This document shows positions 5,471 to 19,584 of a DNA stretch of 64,000 nucleotides, one piece after another (the first letter of the stretch is position 1; each line of letters starts with the position of its first letter). Origin of the DNA: an uncultured Prolixibacteraceae bacterium (GTDB taxonomy: Bacteria; Bacteroidota; Bacteroidia; Bacteroidales; Prolixibacteraceae); NCBI GenBank assembly GCA_913063265.1, contig CAJXZG010000008.1, positions 1 through 64,000 of the forward strand. The letters are read 5' to 3'. The notes beneath the pieces were generated by a model. It ran no database searches. It was not told where the DNA came from and was given only the letters and a program-made list of their open reading frames with translations. The position numbers and the translations under genes were made by a program.

Positions 5471-7126
5471 GTGAAAAGTCTCTATCACATATTGGTTGAA
5501 TTGTTGCAAAAAGGGAAAGAAGTGCAAACCGGCACTTTGCTGCAAACCAAAGGATCAGCTCCACAGGTTCCGGGAGCAATGGCCGTTTTTGATAAAGAGA
5601 AAGTTTTATACGGAACTTTGGGTGGAGGACTGCTTGAAGCCAAAGCACAAAAACTGGCAGCATCCTTATCTGAAACAGAATCTAATACCTTGCAATGGAT
5701 ACATTTTAATGCCAACATGAATGATGAGACAGGAGCAATTTGCGGAGGAAGTTCTTTGTTTTACATCGACACAAATCCATCCAAACATATTGATGCGTTT
5801 TCTCAATTGGCCGACTCAATGGATCGTAAAAAAAGAGGTGTACTTTTAACTTTGCTAACAGATGAAGTCAATCCTGAAATTGAGCGATTCTGGATTGAAT
5901 ATAAAGGTGTTTTAAATGACAGGATTAAAGATTTATTGAGTTATGCCGAAGTGGATGTTGAACAGGTTCTTTCTTCAAAAAAAACTAAATGGATTGAAAA
6001 AGTTAAGGATATTTCAGGACAAAATGTTTCGCTGTTTATCGAACCGGTTTATCCTGTTTCTCAATTAATTATTGTTGGTGCCGGCCATATTGGTACGGCC
6101 TTAAGTTTACTTGGTATTTCAGTAGATTTTGAACTTGTTATAATCGATGACCGTCCGGAAATGGCAAATTCAAACAGGTTTCCCAAGGATGTGAATGTTA
6201 TCTGTAAACCGCTAACGGAAGCGTTTAACCAGGTCTCAATTACTCCTGAAACCTATATTGTAATAGCAACCCAGGGACATCGCTCAGATATAAAGGCATT
6301 AAAATGCTGTATTGGTGCAAATGCTGCTTATATTGGAGTTATTGGAAGCAAACGAAAAACCAAATTAATGGCAAAAGAGTTTGTCGACAAAAAATGGGCA
6401 ACTCAGGCTGAATGGGATTTTATTCATGCTCCAATCGGGATTGATATTCACTCAAAATCGGTAAACGAAATAGCAGTTAGCATTCTTGCTGAATTAATTA
6501 AAGAGCGGTATGAAAACAATTTTATTAAGCCCAAAAAAAGAGTTGAAGCAGTTGTTTTGGCTGCCGGGAAAAGTACTCGAATGGGACAGCAAAAACTGTT
6601 GATGCCTTATAAAAATTCAAGTATTATAAAAAGAGTGGTTGAAGCTCTCTCAAATTCATTGGTAAATCAAATAACCGTAGTAACCGGAAGCGATAAAAAA
6701 GCCATTGAGAAGGAACTGGTTGCCTGTGATATTCTTTTTACTCATAATGAAAAATATGAGAACGGAATGTTATCATCTGTACAAAAAGGGGTAGAAACCG
6801 TTAATCAAAATTGTGATGGAATTATGATTTTGTTGGGAGATCAACCAATGGTTTCAAAATCTGTAATTGACAGATTGATTTCTGTTTTTCAAAAAACAAA
6901 GTCTGGATTGATTGTGCCTGCATATAAAGGGAAACGAGGGCATCCGGTATTGATCGATTCAAAATACAGGGAACAAATAAATTCAATCAATCCTGAAATA
7001 GGACTTCGTGAGTTGTTTTTAAATAATGAGAATGACATTCTGGAAGTTGAAATCAATACCAACGATATTTTAAAAGATATAGATACACCGGAAGAATATA
7101 AAAAAGAAACAGGAATGAGTTATTAA
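5471..7126 (+). CDS. XdhC/CoxI-type maturation factor fused to a MobA-like nucleotidyltransferase
   Basis: A 551-residue fusion. Residues 1 to about 350 are XdhC/CoxI family: an N-terminal domain with GAICGGSSLF, then a Rossmann domain opening with LIIVGAGHIGTAL. From about residue 357 a MobA/MocA-like domain begins with VVLAAGKSTRMGQQK (nucleotide-binding loop) and contains LLGDQPM. XdhC proteins help insert sulfurated molybdenum cofactor into xanthine dehydrogenase/aldehyde oxidase-type enzymes, and MocA-like enzymes form the cytosine-dinucleotide cofactor; this is family knowledge. One protein could therefore finish and deliver the cofactor. No molybdenum hydroxylase lies in this window. 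The start is GTG at 5471, 15 bases after sulfatase 1; no ATG fits better. Confidence 0.88.
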   Translation: MKSLYHILVELLQKGKEVQTGTLLQTKGSAPQVPGAMAVFDKEKVLYGTLGGGLLEAKAQKLAASLSETESNTLQWIHFNANMNDETGAICGGSSLFYIDTNPSKHIDAFSQLADSMDRKKRGVLLTLLTDEVNPEIERFWIEYKGVLNDRIKDLLSYAEVDVEQVLSSKKTKWIEKVKDISGQNVSLFIEPVYPVSQLIIVGAGHIGTALSLLGISVDFELVIIDDRPEMANSNRFPKDVNVICKPLTEAFNQVSITPETYIVIATQGHRSDIKALKCCIGANAAYIGVIGSKRKTKLMAKEFVDKKWATQAEWDFIHAPIGIDIHSKSVNEIAVSILAELIKERYENNFIKPKKRVEAVVLAAGKSTRMGQQKLLMPYKNSSIIKRVVEALSNSLVNQITVVTGSDKKAIEKELVACDILFTHNEKYENGMLSSVQKGVETVNQNCDGIMILLGDQPMVSKSVIDRLISVFQKTKSGLIVPAYKGKRGHPVLIDSKYREQINSINPEIGLRELFLNNENDILEVEINTNDILKDIDTPEEYKKETGMSY

Positions 7127-7273: not shown

Positions 7274-8683
7274 ATGAATAACCTAAAAAAACTCTTTCCG
7301 GCAAAAAAAGACTCAGGAACAGACCGGCGTAATTTTTTAAAGAAATCGGCAATGACCGGATTGGGAATTGCATTTCTGGCTAAGTCAAACGATGCTGCTG
7401 AAGCGCTTGAATACACCACACAAAACGTAAATCGTGCTTCCAGTCCGACGGATTTAAAAATTACCGATTTAAGAGTGGCAAATACAAAAGACGGTCCGAT
7501 ATTAAAAATGTATACCAACCAGGATATTTATGGTTTGGGTGAAGTCCGCGATATCGCAGATCCTCGTTATGCCCTGTTTTTAAAAAGCCGGTTGTTAGGA
7601 TTAAATCCTTGTAATGTAGAGCAGATTTTTAAACACATCAAACAGTTTGGAGGGCATGGCCGACAAGGCGGTGGTGTTTCAGGTGTAGAAATGTGTTTAT
7701 GGGATTTGGCCGGGAAAGCTTATGGAGTTCCGGCATATCAACTGTTGGGAGGCAAATACCGTGACAAAATTCGAATTTATGCAGATACTCCTTCTTCAAA
7801 AGATCCCGCTGTTTATGCAAAACGTATGCGTCACAGAATGGAGCAGGGATATACTTTCCTGAAAATGGATTTTGGAATTGGACTTATCGCTGATATCCCG
7901 GGTGCACTGGTTGGCCATGAATTCTGGAAAGGTCAAAGTGAATGGGATGCAAGCAGACTCGGTAACTTAAGCAATACAAAACATCCCTTTACAAGAATTC
8001 AGATTACCGATTTAGGTTTAGAGAAAATGGTTGAATATGTTCACCAGGTGAGGGATATTGTAGGTTATGAAGTTCCAATGTCGGCCGACCATTTTGGGCA
8101 TTTTGATACAAACACAGCTATCAGGCTGGGAAATGCTGTAGAAAAATATCAACTGGCATGGCTGGAAGATATGGTTCCCTGGTTTTATACAGATAAATGG
8201 CGTCAGATTACAGAAGCGATAAACACGCCTACTTTAACCGGAGAAGATATTTTTGGGAAAGAAGCATTTATAGAACTTTGCGATACACATGCTGTTGATA
8301 TGGTCCATCCCGATTTGGCATCGGCAGGAGGAATTCTGGAAACCAAAAAAATTGGTGATTATGCCGAAGAAAAAGGAATTGCAATGGCATTACACTTTGC
8401 CGGAACTCCGGTATCATTTATGGCCAATGTACATTGTGCCGCGGCTACCCAAAACTTTGTGGCATTAGAACATCACGATGTAGATACTGAATACTGGGAA
8501 GACTATGTTACCGGAGATAAACCACTGGTAGTAGATGGATTTGCACCGGTTCCCGAAAAACCCGGTCTGGGTATCGACCTGAATGAAGATGTGGTTAAAG
8601 AGCATTTAAAAGAGGGTGAAAAATATTTTGCTCCAACCGATGAATGGAACAAAAAGAACTCATGGGACAGACAATGGAGTTGA
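7274..8683 (+). CDS. Tat-exported enolase-superfamily (mandelate racemase/sugar acid dehydratase-like) enzyme
   Basis: Probably dehydrates or isomerises a sugar acid by metal-assisted proton abstraction. A Tat-type leader is visible (T-D-R18-R19-N-F-L-K-K, then a hydrophobic AMTGLGIAFLA stretch), which implies export of the folded enzyme. The N-terminal capping domain ends near CLWDLAGKA. The barrel shows K197-M-D199, metal ligands D272, E298 and E324, H273 and H276 next to the first ligand, D347 in HPDLASAGG, and H374 in ALHFAGTP. The D-H pattern resembles acid-sugar dehydratases. Its cytosolic relatives act in galactonate, mannonate or anhydro-galactonate catabolism; 469 residues is slightly long because of the leader. 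It is followed by a BASS transporter and an exported aldolase-like protein. The substrate is unknown. Confidence 0.85.
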   Translation: MNNLKKLFPAKKDSGTDRRNFLKKSAMTGLGIAFLAKSNDAAEALEYTTQNVNRASSPTDLKITDLRVANTKDGPILKMYTNQDIYGLGEVRDIADPRYALFLKSRLLGLNPCNVEQIFKHIKQFGGHGRQGGGVSGVEMCLWDLAGKAYGVPAYQLLGGKYRDKIRIYADTPSSKDPAVYAKRMRHRMEQGYTFLKMDFGIGLIADIPGALVGHEFWKGQSEWDASRLGNLSNTKHPFTRIQITDLGLEKMVEYVHQVRDIVGYEVPMSADHFGHFDTNTAIRLGNAVEKYQLAWLEDMVPWFYTDKWRQITEAINTPTLTGEDIFGKEAFIELCDTHAVDMVHPDLASAGGILETKKIGDYAEEKGIAMALHFAGTPVSFMANVHCAAATQNFVALEHHDVDTEYWEDYVTGDKPLVVDGFAPVPEKPGLGIDLNEDVVKEHLKEGEKYFAPTDEWNKKNSWDRQWS

Positions 8684-8795
8684 AAAATTTGGAAGACCAA
8701 AGAGAATAAACTTAAATCAAAATTCACCGGGTAACTTTAAGTCAACAGGGGATTAAAAAGTTTTAATTCAATTATAAAAATAAAATTTAGTTCAA

Positions 8796-10100
8796 TTGAA
8801 ATCTAAATCAATCTATCGCTATTTACTAATTCTGGCACTATTACTTTTTGCCATTTTTGCAGTTTTAATCATTATAAATAAACCAACCTTAACCGGTCCG
8901 TTTTTGATACTTGGTTTTGTGAGCCTGGCAATTGCAGTTCGAGGATTCGAGGCAGTAAAAGGCTTTTCTTATTCGCTTTGGATTTTTACTGCGGTGACTG
9001 TTTCGATGTATTATCCACAGTATTTTTTATCAGCAGGAAGTTTTGAATACAAATTATTGATAGTTCCGCTGCTCCAGATAATAATGTTTGGAATGGGCTC
9101 ACAAATGAGTTTAAAAGATTTTGCAGGAGTAATCAAAATGCCAAAAGGCGTAATTGCAGGTGTAATTTGTCAGTTTACAATTATGCCACTGGTTGGTGCT
9201 TCCATAGCCCTGATGTTTAATTTTCCGCCCGAGATCGCTGCCGGAATAATTTTAGTTGGTTCATCGCCTAGTGGATTGGCATCAAATGTAATGTCATTTT
9301 TAGCCAAAGCAAACCTGGCACTTTCGGTTACTTTAACGGCTTTTGCAACTTTGCTTTCTCCCTTGTTAACCCCGTTTTTAATGAAAACTTTTGCAGGTGA
9401 ATTAATCGAAGTAGATTTCTGGAATATGATGTTGGGCATTTTCAATATGGTAATTCTGCCAATAGTTGCCGGATTGATTTTTAATATTTTCTCACTTACA
9501 AAGGTTTCTGTAAAAGGAAAAATCATTCAATTAATTAGTTTCTTTTTAGTGGTGGTTTTGAAAGATATGATAGCTTATCAAACTACAGGAATCGAATTTG
9601 TAATATTCATGAAAAATATTGTTATCGATGTACTTTGGTTTATGGTTCTTCCGGTTGCGGCAGCTATGCTTTTCAAATATCTGGCAAAAGGAAATAACGA
9701 ATGGCTCAACAAAGTCTTGGCCTTTGTTTCCATGCTGGGAATAGGAATCATTATCGTGGTAATTACAGCCGCAGGTCGCGACAGTTTATTAGAAGTTGGA
9801 TTGTTACTGATTCTTGCCTGTTTCATGCACAATATGTTTGGTTATGGTTTGGGATATTCAATTGCAAAATTTGTTTTGCGTATGAGCGAAAAAGACAGTC
9901 GCACGATAGCCCTCGAAGTAGGAATGCAAAACGGAGGATTGGCCTCCGGGTTAGCATTACAAATGGGAAAAGTCGCAACCGTTGGATTGGCACCGGCAAT
10001 TTTTGGTCCGATGATGAACATTACCGGATCATCATTGGCAACCTGGTGGGGAAACAAAGAAGACCGAAGCACGAAGCACGAAGTTGGAAGTGAAGAATAA
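8796..10100 (+). CDS. BASS-family (bile acid:sodium symporter-like) transporter
   Basis: An inner-membrane carrier of 434 residues with about ten to eleven hydrophobic spans. Landmarks of the SBF/BASS fold are visible: MFGMGSQMSLKDF after the third to fourth span, VGSSPSGLASNVMSFLAKAN (helix-break region), and EVGMQNGGLASGLALQ in the second half. BASS proteins import organic anions with sodium, including bile acids and, in plants, pyruvate (family knowledge). The start is TTG at 8796, since no ATG lies near the first span. It sits between two exported enzymes of sugar-acid type, so a keto-acid product is a plausible cargo. The hydrophilic tail is encoded by a 7-bp tandem repeat (10065-10083). 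Confidence 0.85.
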   Translation: MKSKSIYRYLLILALLLFAIFAVLIIINKPTLTGPFLILGFVSLAIAVRGFEAVKGFSYSLWIFTAVTVSMYYPQYFLSAGSFEYKLLIVPLLQIIMFGMGSQMSLKDFAGVIKMPKGVIAGVICQFTIMPLVGASIALMFNFPPEIAAGIILVGSSPSGLASNVMSFLAKANLALSVTLTAFATLLSPLLTPFLMKTFAGELIEVDFWNMMLGIFNMVILPIVAGLIFNIFSLTKVSVKGKIIQLISFFLVVVLKDMIAYQTTGIEFVIFMKNIVIDVLWFMVLPVAAAMLFKYLAKGNNEWLNKVLAFVSMLGIGIIIVVITAAGRDSLLEVGLLLILACFMHNMFGYGLGYSIAKFVLRMSEKDSRTIALEVGMQNGGLASGLALQMGKVATVGLAPAIFGPMMNITGSSLATWWGNKEDRSTKHEVGSEE

Positions 10101-10145
10101 ACTCTGTGAACGTAGTGCATTCTTTGTGAACTTTGTGGTTAGGCG
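10065..10145. repeat. Short tandem repeat and repeat-like text at the transporter 3' end
   Basis: CGAAGCA is repeated 2.7 times (10065-10083) inside the last codons of the transporter. After the stop comes quasi-repetitive text of the 'CTTTGTGAACTTTGTGG' kind (10101-10145), a style common between Bacteroidota genes. A possible TTG start for the next gene at 10133 falls inside it and was not used. Confidence 0.4.
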
Positions 10146-10183
10146 GTAAATACAAAAACGAAATACTAATTAAAAATACAAAA

Positions 10184-11104
10184 ATGAAAAAACTAATCTT
10201 ACTAATTGCAGTTTTAATCGGAGCAAGTCAAATCAGTTTTGCTCAAATTGAACCATCAAAAGAAATGATGGAATTTTATACTCCGAAATGGGAAGGTGAA
10301 CGAGACGAGAGTGGACGTCCGATAGTGCCGGATGAATTGCTGGATCGTTTATTAAATCTTTCGATTGAAGAAGCCTGGGGAGTTATTCGAAACGAAGGTT
10401 ATCATAACCAGTTTGACGGTGGATGGACAACAATTAATGATGAACCTTTTGTGGGGCGGGCACTTACCGTACAATATTCTCCAAACCGACCTGAAATAAA
10501 AGAACAAATCGAAGCACTTGGAAAAGAAGAAGGTAGAATTGGAGCTTCCAACTCATGGCCAATAGATATGCTTAAGGAGCGTGATGTTTATGTTGCTGAT
10601 GGTTTTGGAAAAGTAATCAACGGAACTTTGATTGGTGATAATTTAGGGAATTCCATTTACGCAAAATCAAAAACAGGAGTAGTGTTTGATGCAGGTGCCC
10701 GCGATTTGGAAGGCCTTTCAAAGATTGAAGGATTTAATGCCTTTACCCGTGGATTTGATCCATCATTTATAATGGAAATGACGGTTACCGGAATTAATGT
10801 TCCTATCAGAATTGGAAGAGCAGCAGTTTTACCGGGAGACGTAGTTCTTGCAAAGCGTGAAGGTGTAATTTTTATTCCACCACATTTGGTTCAGAAAGTT
10901 GTAATAACAGGCGAATTTATTGGCCTCAGAGATAAGTTTGGTCATCAACGTTTGCGTGAAGGTGTTTATACTCCGGGTCAAATTGACGGGAAATGGAGTG
11001 ATGAAATCAAAAAAGATTTTTTGGCTTGGCTGGATGAAAATGAAGATAGTCTCCCAATGTCTCGTGAAGAGTTGGATGAGTACATGAAGAACAGAACCTG
11101 GTAA
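10184..11104 (+). CDS. Exported RraA/HMG-aldolase-like protein
   Basis: Member of the RraA-fold family, which includes class II 4-hydroxy-4-methyl-2-oxoglutarate aldolases that release pyruvate. The ATG at 10184 starts a clean Sec signal peptide (MKKLILLIAVLIGASQISFA), unusual for a family that is normally cytosolic. Family motifs are present: GTLIGDNLGNSIYAKSKTG, then FDAGARDLEGL, where R173 and D174 match the substrate-binding Arg and metal-binding Asp of the aldolases, and LPGDVVLAKREGVIF. At 306 residues it is longer than plain RraA (about 160-230) because of extra N- and C-terminal segments. It lies 83 bases after the BASS transporter and 29 bases before sulfatase 2. Aldolase activity is inferred from the conserved residues and not proven. 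Confidence 0.83.
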   Translation: MKKLILLIAVLIGASQISFAQIEPSKEMMEFYTPKWEGERDESGRPIVPDELLDRLLNLSIEEAWGVIRNEGYHNQFDGGWTTINDEPFVGRALTVQYSPNRPEIKEQIEALGKEEGRIGASNSWPIDMLKERDVYVADGFGKVINGTLIGDNLGNSIYAKSKTGVVFDAGARDLEGLSKIEGFNAFTRGFDPSFIMEMTVTGINVPIRIGRAAVLPGDVVLAKREGVIFIPPHLVQKVVITGEFIGLRDKFGHQRLREGVYTPGQIDGKWSDEIKKDFLAWLDENEDSLPMSREELDEYMKNRTW

Positions 11105-16794: not shown

Positions 16795-19584
16795 ATGAAA
16801 CCTAAACTAATTTTACTAAGCATTATTTGTTTTCTCTTTTCTAACACATTTGCCCAACAAACCGAAATCAAATTTTTATCAGGAACCGACGCTGCAAATA
16901 CAGTGGAATGGGATTTTTTCTGTACCGATGGAATGAATAGCGGAGAATGGTCAAAAATTGCTGTTCCTTCAAACTGGGAATTACAGGGATTTGGAAATTA
17001 TAATTATGGTCACGACTGGAATAATACAAACAGGGTAGTAGGCAAAGAACACGGGCTTTACAAATACAATTTCGAAGTTCCATCTTCATGGAAAGGAAAA
17101 ACGGTGAATATCGTTTTTGATGGCTCTATGACCGATACCGAAGTAAAAATCAATGGCAAATCAGCCGGTGAAATCCATCAGGGAGCATTTTACCGTTTTA
17201 AATACGATATTTCAAAACTGTTAAAATATGGTAAAAGCAATTTGCTTGAAGTAGATGTTGCCAAGCACTCTGCCAACGAGTCGGTAAACAGAGCTGAGCG
17301 ACAGGCTGACTTCTGGATTTTTGGTGGAATTTTTCGGCCTGTTTTTCTGGAAGTTTTGCCCGAAACTCATTTTACAAGAACAGCAATCGATGCAAAAGCT
17401 GATGGGTCATTCAATTCATTGTTGGTGATCAATCAGTCGAAAAAGGATTATACTGTTTTAGTTGAATTGTTTGATTTGGAGGGAAATAAGATTGAAAGTT
17501 CCATTCAGTCTTCAATAGAAAAAGGAACAACAGAAAAGTTTGTATCCGGAAATTTTGAGGGAATTAAATCCTGGAATCCCGAATGGCCAACTTTATACGA
17601 CATGAAAATCATCTTAAAAGATGGCGATGATATTTTACATGAAGTTACCGAAAGAATTGGTTTCAGAACAGTTGAACTAAGAAAACACGATGGTTTTTAT
17701 ATCAACGATAAAAAAGTGGTTTTTAAAGGAGTTAACCGCCACTCTTTCTGGCCCGAAACCGGTCGTGCCTTAAGTGAAGAAATTATTCGTGAGGATATTC
17801 GGTTGATAAAGGAAATGAACATGAATGCAGTTCGTTGTTCACATTATGTTCCCGACAAACGATTTCTGGAATTATGTGACTCGATTGGCCTTTTTGTTTT
17901 GAATGAAGTTACCGGCTGGCAGGATGGTTATGATACCATCGTTGGACCAAAAGTAATTAAGGAGACAGTTTTAAAGGATGAAAATCACCCATCAGTAGTT
18001 ATTTGGGATCATGGCAATGAAGGTGGCTGGTTATTTGAAAATGAAAAATGGTTGCATCACTGGGACATTCAAAAACGCCCGGTTATTTGCCCCTGGTTAT
18101 TTCATAATGGTGTGGATACTTATCATTATCCTTTTTATAATTTTGCCATTTCAAGGTACACAAGAGGTAACGACCCTTTTATGCCTACGGAATTTCTGCA
18201 TGGATTATACGATGGCGGACATGGTGCCGGGCTTGAAGATTTTTGGAGACACTATGAAACTTCACCCTTACTCGCCGGAGGTTTTCTTTGGGTTCTAACT
18301 GATGAAGCTGTTTTACGAACCGACAAAGATGGTACAGTTTACGATGCCGATGCAAATCATGCTCCCGATGGTATTTTAGGGCCTCACCGCGAAAAGGAAG
18401 GAAGCTTTTTTACCATCAAAGAAATATGGTCACCGGTACAGGTTAAATCTGTTACTATTAACAAACAGTGGAACGGTAATCTGTTTGTTGAAAACAAATT
18501 TATTTACACCAATTTAAAAGATTGCGGTTTTAGCTGGAAAGCTGTAAAAACTGAAATAGGAAGTACAAAAGAAAAAGTAGTTGGCAGCGGTATGATTGAA
18601 AGCCCGGATGCACTTCCGGGAGAAACTTCTCTGCTGAAAGTTAATATTGGAGAAGCATTGCAGGATGCCGATATTTTTAAGTTTAAGGCCATCGATCAAA
18701 ATGGTCATGAACTTTATACCTGGAGTTGGCCTGTAATTCAATCTGTTGAAAAAGCTTCTGAGTTGTATGCTGATAAAAAAGGCGAAATTACTGTTTCTGA
18801 AAATGAAAGTGTGCTAACGGCTTCAGTTAATAATATGCAGTTTTCTTTCAGCAAAAACAACGGCACAATAACAGAAGTAAAAAATGGGGATGGATTAGTT
18901 TCATTTTCAGGAGGGCCGGTTGCTGCCGGTATTGATTCTAAAGTAACTGATATAAAATGGAACAGAACTGAGGATGGAAACTTTGAAATCAGAATAAAAT
19001 ATGACGCCTATCCCCGTCAGTCCAAATGGGTTTTACACACCAATGGATTACTTTATTTTGAAGCAGAAAAATTAAATGATGTATTTAGCAATATCGATTA
19101 TCTGGGCATTTCTTTTAATTATCCCGAAGAAAAAGTGAAAGGTGTAAAATGGATGGGACAGGGACCATACCGCGTATGGAAAAACAGGTTAAAAGGAAGC
19201 AATTTTGGTGTGTGGGAAAAAGAGTATAACAATACCATTACCGGGGAGAGTTTTAACAATTTGATTTATCCGGAATTTAAGGGGTATCATGGAAAAATGT
19301 ACTGGGCAACAATCGAAACTTCTGAATCTGATTTTACCATTGTTACAGAAACACCAAATATATTCTTCCAATTGTATAAGCCCGAAAAACCGCGTGATGT
19401 AAAAGGTGGAACTCACCCTCCATTCCCCGAAGGTGATTTGTCGTTTTTATACGAAATTCCGGCTATCGGAACAAAATTCAAAGAGGTTGAATCACTCGGA
19501 CCAAACAGTGAAAGAGGAGTTTTTTATACCCATAAAAACGGAAGTGAATATCCACTTAAATTATGGTTCGATTTTAGGAAATAG
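16795..19584 (+). CDS. Exported glycoside hydrolase family 2 enzyme (LacZ-like architecture)
   Basis: A secreted beta-glycosidase of 929 residues with a Sec signal peptide (FLFSNTFAQ). Domains in order: sugar-binding jelly roll (about 30-200, with WNNTNRVVGKEHGLYKY), Ig-like domain (200-305), TIM barrel (310-590), Ig-like linker, then a LacZ domain-5-like C-terminus (about 680-929, WMGQGPYRVWKNRLKG). The putative acid/base is E409 in WDHGNEGGW and the nucleophile E466 in PTEFLHG. GH2 covers beta-galactosidases, glucuronidases and mannosidases; specificity is not readable here. It lies 22 bases before sulfatase 5, so desulfation and glycosidic cleavage are probably coupled. Confidence 0.92.
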   Translation: MKPKLILLSIICFLFSNTFAQQTEIKFLSGTDAANTVEWDFFCTDGMNSGEWSKIAVPSNWELQGFGNYNYGHDWNNTNRVVGKEHGLYKYNFEVPSSWKGKTVNIVFDGSMTDTEVKINGKSAGEIHQGAFYRFKYDISKLLKYGKSNLLEVDVAKHSANESVNRAERQADFWIFGGIFRPVFLEVLPETHFTRTAIDAKADGSFNSLLVINQSKKDYTVLVELFDLEGNKIESSIQSSIEKGTTEKFVSGNFEGIKSWNPEWPTLYDMKIILKDGDDILHEVTERIGFRTVELRKHDGFYINDKKVVFKGVNRHSFWPETGRALSEEIIREDIRLIKEMNMNAVRCSHYVPDKRFLELCDSIGLFVLNEVTGWQDGYDTIVGPKVIKETVLKDENHPSVVIWDHGNEGGWLFENEKWLHHWDIQKRPVICPWLFHNGVDTYHYPFYNFAISRYTRGNDPFMPTEFLHGLYDGGHGAGLEDFWRHYETSPLLAGGFLWVLTDEAVLRTDKDGTVYDADANHAPDGILGPHREKEGSFFTIKEIWSPVQVKSVTINKQWNGNLFVENKFIYTNLKDCGFSWKAVKTEIGSTKEKVVGSGMIESPDALPGETSLLKVNIGEALQDADIFKFKAIDQNGHELYTWSWPVIQSVEKASELYADKKGEITVSENESVLTASVNNMQFSFSKNNGTITEVKNGDGLVSFSGGPVAAGIDSKVTDIKWNRTEDGNFEIRIKYDAYPRQSKWVLHTNGLLYFEAEKLNDVFSNIDYLGISFNYPEEKVKGVKWMGQGPYRVWKNRLKGSNFGVWEKEYNNTITGESFNNLIYPEFKGYHGKMYWATIETSESDFTIVTETPNIFFQLYKPEKPRDVKGGTHPPFPEGDLSFLYEIPAIGTKFKEVESLGPNSERGVFYTHKNGSEYPLKLWFDFRK

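Follow-up and report, generated by a model that had tools for sequence, protein, structure and literature searches.

Introduction

Dehydration, pyridoxal phosphate (PLP)-dependent deamination and aldol cleavage of sugar acids are thought of as cytosolic steps. To our knowledge, the known sugar-acid pathways of the non-phosphorylating Entner-Doudoroff type are cytosolic and use aldolases of families other than RraA. Here we describe a three-gene cluster from an uncultured Prolixibacteraceae bacterium (assembly GCA_913063265.1), in which genes for an enolase-superfamily (MR_MLE) enzyme with a twin-arginine translocation (Tat) leader and an RraA-family protein with a Sec-type signal peptide stand on either side of a gene for a BASS-family carrier. 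The cluster lies in a 64,000-nucleotide stretch, hereafter the window, which is the first part of contig CAJXZG010000008.1 in a 5.49 Mb genome. We propose, with about an even chance of being right, that the cluster encodes an extracytoplasmic, non-phosphorylating sugar-acid route made up of a dehydratase, an aldolase and BASS-mediated import.

Several described systems resemble parts of this cluster. In the Ong pathway of Pseudoalteromonas, a deacetylase and a PLP-dependent deaminase convert N-acetyl-glucosaminate (GlcNAc1A) to 2-keto-3-deoxygluconate (KDG), and RidA is needed for growth; OngB and OngC are predicted to be cytoplasmic, the substrate being imported first and KDG then phosphorylated by KdgK (PMC9537276). 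In an alginate branch, the RraA-family enzyme FlDet acts as a dehydratase/decarboxylase on 2-keto-3-deoxy-glucarate (KDGR) only (PMC8563752). DauB of Zobellia makes 2-keto-3-deoxy-D-galactonate (PMC5698469). For 4-hydroxy-4-methyl-2-oxoglutarate/4-carboxy-4-hydroxy-2-oxoadipate (HMG/CHA) aldolase, Arg-123 was reported to be essential and to stabilise the pyruvate enolate, and most homologues of the enzyme hold one of two motifs (PMC5065237). Searches of open-licence PMC papers brought up no description of the arrangement presented here.

Results

Organization of the cluster

The three genes are consecutive on the forward strand; 112 bases separate the first from the second and 83 bases the second from the third. 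The first (7274..8683) encodes the 469-AA MR_MLE protein, an acid-sugar dehydratase-like enzyme; the second (8796..10100), with a TTG start, the 434-AA BASS (SBF) carrier; and the third (10184..11104) the RraA-family protein, a predicted class II pyruvate-aldolase-like enzyme of 306 AA counted from the ATG. The open reading frames (ORFs) were obtained with our own caller, which accepts ATG, GTG and TTG starts, and the mechanically called RraA frame begins upstream of this ATG, with a TTG at 10133. All three products score above the curated Pfam cut-offs for their domains: PF13378 (165 bits) and PF02746 (27.2 bits) for the C- and N-terminal parts of the MR_MLE protein, PF01758 (136 bits vs. a cut-off of 24.3) for the carrier, and PF03737 (67 bits) for the RraA-like protein. 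The first-pass annotation of this DNA had described just such a trio, a Tat-led enolase-superfamily enzyme and a Sec-led RraA-type protein with a BASS carrier between them, and the frames, domains and leaders are all present.

At the level of named NCBIfam families, every nearest model scored below its cut-off. The best match of the MR_MLE protein was galactonate dehydratase (189 bits vs. 311), which leaves it outside the named equivalog. The carrier reached 204 bits against 326 for TIGR00841 (bass) and 201 against 400 for PanS. The RraA-like protein was closest to PRK08245, a 'hypothetical protein' model, and fell below every aldolase cut-off (56 bits vs. 179 and 55 vs. 304.5).

Export leaders of the two enzymes

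The Tat leader of the MR_MLE protein (7274..7405, end approximate) carries RRNFLKK at residues 18–24, followed by a hydrophobic stretch, and TatC is encoded in the same genome (213 bits). To assess conservation we used 37 main-group sequences, the window's included, and 16 paralogues, after contig-end, partial and identical ORFs had been dropped; the cluster from which they come includes distant members, with about 23–26% identity. R18 and R19 were identical in 53/53. In 27 non-redundant rows both had a frequency of 1.00, whereas the remaining columns within residues 1–50 averaged 0.49, with high values also at G29 (1.00), F21 and the G28 column (0.96 each). The signal peptide of the RraA-like protein (10184..10246), MKKLILLIAVLIGASQISFA, is probably cut after ISFA at residue 21, and in the orthologues a consensus MK...AQ precedes the mature part (53 aligned rows).

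Signals were scored by a simple N-terminal rule of our own in addition to conservation. The rule fired on 116/120 ORFs of the RraA cluster and on 58 of the 61 MR_MLE ORFs, 55 of them as Tat; loci from L080 onward partly repeat other loci, so these counts contain duplicates. Since it also fired on 1054/1548 ORFs of the related loci, the counts by themselves prove little. The three MR_MLE misses were a leader hidden behind an over-long start (L077), a similarly long start (L041) and part of a split gene (L073). In the last locus, the MR_MLE gene at 8370-9795 is divided into two overlapping ORFs, by a frameshift or an assembly error.

The case for export rests on the twin arginine and on relatives of cytosolic type. 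As controls, 20 weak RraA-like proteins were picked by hand from the weak matches within the window's family; nine of them (228–266 AA) have no signal-like N-terminus and the other 11 (274–308 AA), which make up a separate group, have one. Five of the seven MR_MLE_C matches in the window genome bear an RR leader, which is lacking in the other two, judged by eye to be an enolase and a dipeptide epimerase. Both RraA-like proteins of the genome begin with a signal-peptide-like stretch. The second of these (L057:9930-10748, contig C24 of this genome) is the genome's only other RraA-like protein; it is similar to the second group, whose members have about 275 residues, and is followed by a sulfatase-like gene.

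These findings uphold the earlier reading of leaders on both enzymes, since R18/R19 are kept in 53/53, the MK...AQ start is kept and cytosolic-type controls lack leaders. Its premise that both families are normally cytosolic does not hold in this genome, given the RR leaders on five of seven MR_MLE_C matches and the signal-like starts of both RraA-like proteins. That the leaders are non-functional, or that the proteins stay in the cytoplasm, would fit the laxity of the rule, but it is hardly credible in view of the kept twin arginine and RraA start, the presence of TatC and the leaderless cytosolic-type relatives. Judged by sequence, the MR_MLE and RraA-like proteins appear to act outside the cytoplasm.

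The MR_MLE enzyme

Residues K197, D199, D272, H273, E298, E324, D347 and H374 were invariant in 37/37 main-group sequences and H276 in 36/37; the key residues listed in the first-pass annotation (D272/E298/E324 and H273) are thus intact. We take the Asp/Glu/Glu set (D272, E298, E324) to be metal ligands and D347 and H374 to form a His-Asp dyad, roles presumed from an alignment with 2qq6. In the sequence alignment D-H-F-G-H occupies the position of D-M-H-G-R in 2qq6, which places the protein in an MR_MLE subgroup without a named specificity. An AlphaFold2 (AF2) model (pLDDT 90.3) had 2qq6 as its nearest fold, followed by putative, gluconate and mannonate dehydratases. The protein appears to be an acid-sugar dehydratase-like enzyme with predicted activity on aldonic acids.

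The same fold family includes DauB, and the enzyme could be an anhydro-sugar-acid cycloisomerase of this kind that yields 2-keto-3-deoxy-galactonate and leaves the later steps unchanged. DauB (5olc) is indeed among the PDB sequence matches, and the window holds five sulfatases and a GH2 enzyme nearest to the exo-beta-1,4-galactosidase BT4156, below the cut-off. Yet in the sequence search 5olc comes far below 2qq6 and the entries of dehydratase type, and among named families and folds the best matches are galactonate, gluconate and mannonate dehydratases. Moreover, in the motif register assumed here, KxK seems to have Asp199 at its second position and not the Lys named as base in the cycloisomerase AtGCI. 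We therefore regard a cycloisomerase as very unlikely and retain the dehydratase assignment.

The RraA-like protein

D152, R173 and D174 form a D-X20-R-D pattern, which we take to be a motif of aldolase type; it aligns with D102/R123/D124 of the HMG/CHA aldolase structure 3noj, with residues counted by hand. The pattern was found in 108/112 RraA orthologues vs. 2/20 of the weak controls, so that R173/D174, named in the earlier annotation, are intact and part of a conserved triad. The AF2 model (pLDDT 94.2) was matched by Foldseek, in order, to 5x15 (2.6e-14), 3k4i, 5ir2 and 3noj (5.5e-13). Its 26 PDB matches with E up to 0.001 comprise RraA entries, HMG/CHA aldolase, yeast YER010Cp, and 3k4i, 5ir2, 2pcn and 1nxj, for which function names are lacking or doubtful.

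An aldol cut is not the only reaction to be considered. FlDet of Flavobacterium sp. UMI-01, which is RraA-like, acted on KDGR alone among KDGR, DEHU, KDG, KDPG and HOD, and the mass of its product is that of alpha-ketoglutaric semialdehyde (PMC8563752). As FlDet dehydrates and decarboxylates rather than cleaves, the RraA-like protein may catalyse something other than an aldol cut; it could dehydrate, or dehydrate and decarboxylate, an exported 2-keto-3-deoxy acid, and BASS would then import a keto acid or semialdehyde. The proximity to PRK08245 and the scores below every aldolase cut-off agree with this. The aldolase-type pattern in 108/112 orthologues does not, and FlDet, by its description, belongs to another size class, with 237 residues and an N-terminus at the start Met. 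We consider an FlDet-like reaction unlikely; between the two, a pyruvate-forming aldol cut by the RraA-like protein is favoured.

The BASS carrier and its cargo

Two motifs of the carrier were compared across 29 homologues of 400–480 AA: in GSSPSGLASN the P, S and N never vary, and in EVGMQNGGLA this is true of E, V, G and N. BASS and the KDG permease KdgT are members of one transporter superfamily. The cargo may be pyruvate or the keto-deoxy acid itself.

In locus L146, KDG-kinase-like and Eda genes directly follow BASS, which suits the import of uncut acid. In contig C35 of the window genome (L169:8325-10773), another Tat-type MR_MLE gene is followed 118 bases on by a KDG-kinase-like gene that scores below the NCBIfam cut-offs; this pair suggests extracytoplasmic dehydration with import before phosphorylation. 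At such places, after BASS in L146 or after a Tat-type MR_MLE gene in L169, what enters the cell may be the keto-deoxy acid itself. Extended to the trio, BASS would import uncut 2-keto-3-deoxy acid for a cytosolic KDG kinase and KDPG aldolase, the exported RraA-like protein having a side role. The L146 genes and the L169 pair both speak for such a scheme, the window genome having its Eda gene on another contig. Among the fetched loci L040–L159, though, a homologue of the kinase occurs only in L146 and L055, five and six genes from RraA, and it is absent from the fetched neighbourhoods of the DgaE-only type described below. The one constant member of the clusters is RraA, as would hardly be expected of a protein with a side role, though this constancy is partly by construction, the loci having been found by RraA. 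Uncut import as the general function of the trio is therefore distinctly unlikely, and uptake of a small product of the RraA step remains our preferred reading.

Conservation of the trio

We searched 140 genomes of the window's family with RraA and obtained a match in 58 and a clear orthologue (E up to 1.5e-44; next best 4.5e-12) in 32. In 21 of these 32, one of which is the window's own, the members of the trio are at most five genes apart (hand count). Several of the remaining 11 are cut by contig ends, and some have long flanks without the trio, e.g., L047 and L049. Outside the family the trio was found in Cyclobacteriaceae (L086, L087, L090), in L154, L146 and L130, and in a planctomycete (L107); there, gene orders and orientations differ, and some hosts are Cytophagales. 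Where members of the three families adjoin on the same strand, the median gap is 27 bp and 116/120 gaps are at most 150 bp, repeat loci included. The recurrence in 21/32 family genomes and at Cytophagales and planctomycete loci indicates that the trio is a conserved neighbourhood.

For counts of neighbouring genes, ORFs with identical last 120 residues were removed, which left 119 RraA genes; 91 of them have full flanks, i.e., at least three ORFs on each side. The unit is the RraA gene, as some loci hold two. An MR_MLE gene or a gene for a DgaE-type lyase stands within five genes of 83/91. The other eight are without a nearby dehydratase or lyase, and one of these has BASS.

Near two RraA/MR_MLE pairs in L074, L076, L079 and L053 lie genes for a DHDPS-family protein, a xylulokinase-like FGGY kinase, a class II FBP aldolase and a HAD-like protein; the first three families were tested in L074, and the HAD-like label was given by eye. 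These genes perhaps handle the second product of the RraA cut.

A sister operon with amino-sugar-acid enzymes

A scan of wider genome contigs with RraA gave 80 loci, about half from Flavobacteriaceae or its genera. It revealed a sister operon, found mostly in Flavobacteriaceae, that keeps the same RraA and a carrier (BASS or TRAP); in place of MR_MLE it has an amidohydrolase, a DgaE-type ammonia lyase and RidA proteins. The usual order is CBM9, GSDH/cytochrome c, amidohydrolase, BASS, RraA, RidA, DgaE-type lyase and RidA. Of the 91 full-flank RraA genes, 46 have DgaE without MR_MLE nearby; these are accompanied by amidohydrolase (45), RidA (45), GSDH (39), CBM9 (27) and lactonase-like (12) genes. 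As carrier, 38 have BASS and seven TRAP, one of them both, and L143 and L152 are without a carrier. TRAP genes (DctP/Q/M) take the place of an absent BASS in L096, L108, L125, L127, L134 and L149, and L120 and L159 hold both.

By the lax rule, signals occur on most products of the sister operon: amidohydrolase 58/60, DgaE-type lyase 56/56, the two RidA groups 50/51 and 37/38, GSDH 39/42, CBM9 27/29 and lactonase-like 16/18. The amidohydrolase is nearest to PRK09237/EF_0837 and passes the PRK09237 cut-off (447 bits vs. 371), the lyase stays below that of DgaE family TIGR01437 (201 vs. 385), and the RidA proteins belong to PF01042/PF14588. Catalytic residues are retained throughout, with the PLP Lys in 55/55 DgaE-type proteins, the RidA Arg in 45/45 and 35/35, and the amidohydrolase HxH, Lys, His and Asp in 54/54, once contig-end ORFs, off-length ORFs and those sharing their last 100 residues had been dropped. 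By analogy, this set also seems to yield a 2-keto-3-deoxy sugar acid, starting from an N-acyl amino-sugar acid.

In an RraA tree of 112 rows, the window's included (ORFs <240 AA left out), the lyase type forms one starred clade of 49 rows plus a lone member, L152. Most of the remaining tree belongs to the dehydratase type: a starred 48-row set containing the window, a 10-row set and single rows. The window's set comprises 32 dehydratase rows, five with both enzyme sets, six with neither and five with no type given. Many independent swaps between dehydratase and lyase had been considered and were rejected, as the tree needs only two changes, one being L152. The carrier switched between BASS and TRAP once.

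Both enzyme sets occur near seven RraA genes in five loci, and the fetched stretches of L045, L046 and L078 hold a single RraA. With two enzyme sets sharing RraA, and some loci having both, the simplest reading is that both feed RraA one kind of compound. Judged by its neighbours, the most likely substrate of the RraA-like protein is a 2-keto-3-deoxy acid outside the cytoplasm. An intermediate of this type outside the cytoplasm had been proposed in the first-pass annotation; it gains from the sister operon as the likely shared intermediate.

Other features of the window

A sulfated glycan had been proposed as the source of the sugar acid. The window's five sulfatases and the GH2 gene at 16795-19584, close to BT4156 (1073 bits vs. 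a cut-off of 1700), suggest such a source locally. As a general feature it was rejected, since a sulfatase homologue lies within five genes of only 6/91 full-flank RraA genes. SusC/SusD-like clusters, labelled by eye, are near 19/91.

Upstream of the trio, at 5471-7126, the window encodes an XdhC-MocA fusion (molybdenum cofactor maturation), with no adjoining oxidase gene. The idea of a molybdenum aldehyde oxidase that it raised was dropped, the two such proteins being on other contigs; across the related loci, XDHC was the best match of no ORF. A promoter pattern, TTTG-N-TANNTTTG, was found five times vs. 4.62 expected, i.e., at chance level.

Discussion

From the genes, their conserved leaders, intact active sites and conserved neighbourhood we infer where the route would run, its reactions and their order, its substrate and its cargo. 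The Tat-exported MR_MLE enzyme would dehydrate an aldonic acid of the galactonate or gluconate type to a 2-keto-3-deoxy acid. The Sec-exported RraA-type enzyme would then cut this acid in a metal-dependent retro-aldol reaction, giving pyruvate and an aldehyde such as glyceraldehyde, and pyruvate, or another small 2-oxo acid like it, would be imported by BASS.

Several observations weigh against this proposal. The named dehydratases, aldolases and carriers of NCBIfam are not reached at their cut-offs, and the signal rule also fires on membrane proteins, BASS among them. FlDet, as an RraA-family enzyme, was inactive on KDG (PMC8563752), and KDG-kinase-like and Eda genes follow the carrier in L146. 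As for distribution, 82/140 genomes of the window's family have no RraA match at all, BASS lies within five genes of only 23/37 full-flank dehydratase-type RraA genes, and 7/91 RraA genes have none of MR_MLE, DgaE, BASS and TRAP nearby. The support from the sister operon is narrowed by the tree, in which the exchange of front ends comes close to a single event: two changes separate the pure types, and L152 by itself accounts for one of these. Within the window genome, the DgaE model has no more than two weak matches, so that both front ends do not coexist there.

Taking both operons into account, we put forward, as a tentative proposal whose chances we place somewhat short of even, that many Bacteroidota catabolise aldonic and amino-aldonic acids wholly outside the inner membrane and import only a small keto acid. 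Such a scheme would have two alternative front ends (a dehydratase, or a deacetylase with an ammonia lyase) and two alternative importers (BASS or TRAP); it would start with sugar oxidation by GSDH-cytochrome c and a lactonase, and end with aldol cleavage. If true, neighbours could obtain intermediates through sharing or loss, carriers now annotated as bile-acid symporters would have a part in the use of sugar acids, and a large number of proteins named only as RraA-type would acquire a testable function.

Compared with known systems, the proposed logic is that of the non-phosphorylating Entner-Doudoroff type, with an enolase-superfamily dehydratase followed by a pyruvate-forming cut; unlike there, both enzymes here have export leaders and an RraA-family protein fills the aldolase slot. 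The sister operon, by an analogy of enzyme class, is proposed to use a deacetylase, a PLP enzyme and RidA as Ong does, and differs from what is described of Ong in its leaders, its PRK09237/EF_0837-type amidohydrolase and the RraA that stands in place of KdgK (PMC9537276). FlDet is an RraA-family enzyme of a Bacteroidota member with a 2-keto-3-deoxy sugar acid as substrate (PMC8563752), as is proposed for the window's RraA-like protein. HMG/CHA aldolase shares the fold and the Asp/Arg/Asp site (PMC5065237) but serves aromatic catabolism, has 18% identity when structurally aligned, and counts 235 residues vs. 285 plus leader in the window protein. The carrageenan cluster of Zobellia (DauA-D) likewise contains sulfatases and an enolase-superfamily enzyme feeding a 2-keto-3-deoxy acid; it is kinase-dependent, and the part of its gene table covered here lists no RraA or BASS (PMC5698469). 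Thus, the chemistry of the cluster and of its sister is known from sugar-acid and amino-sugar-acid routes, and has apparently been moved outside the inner membrane.

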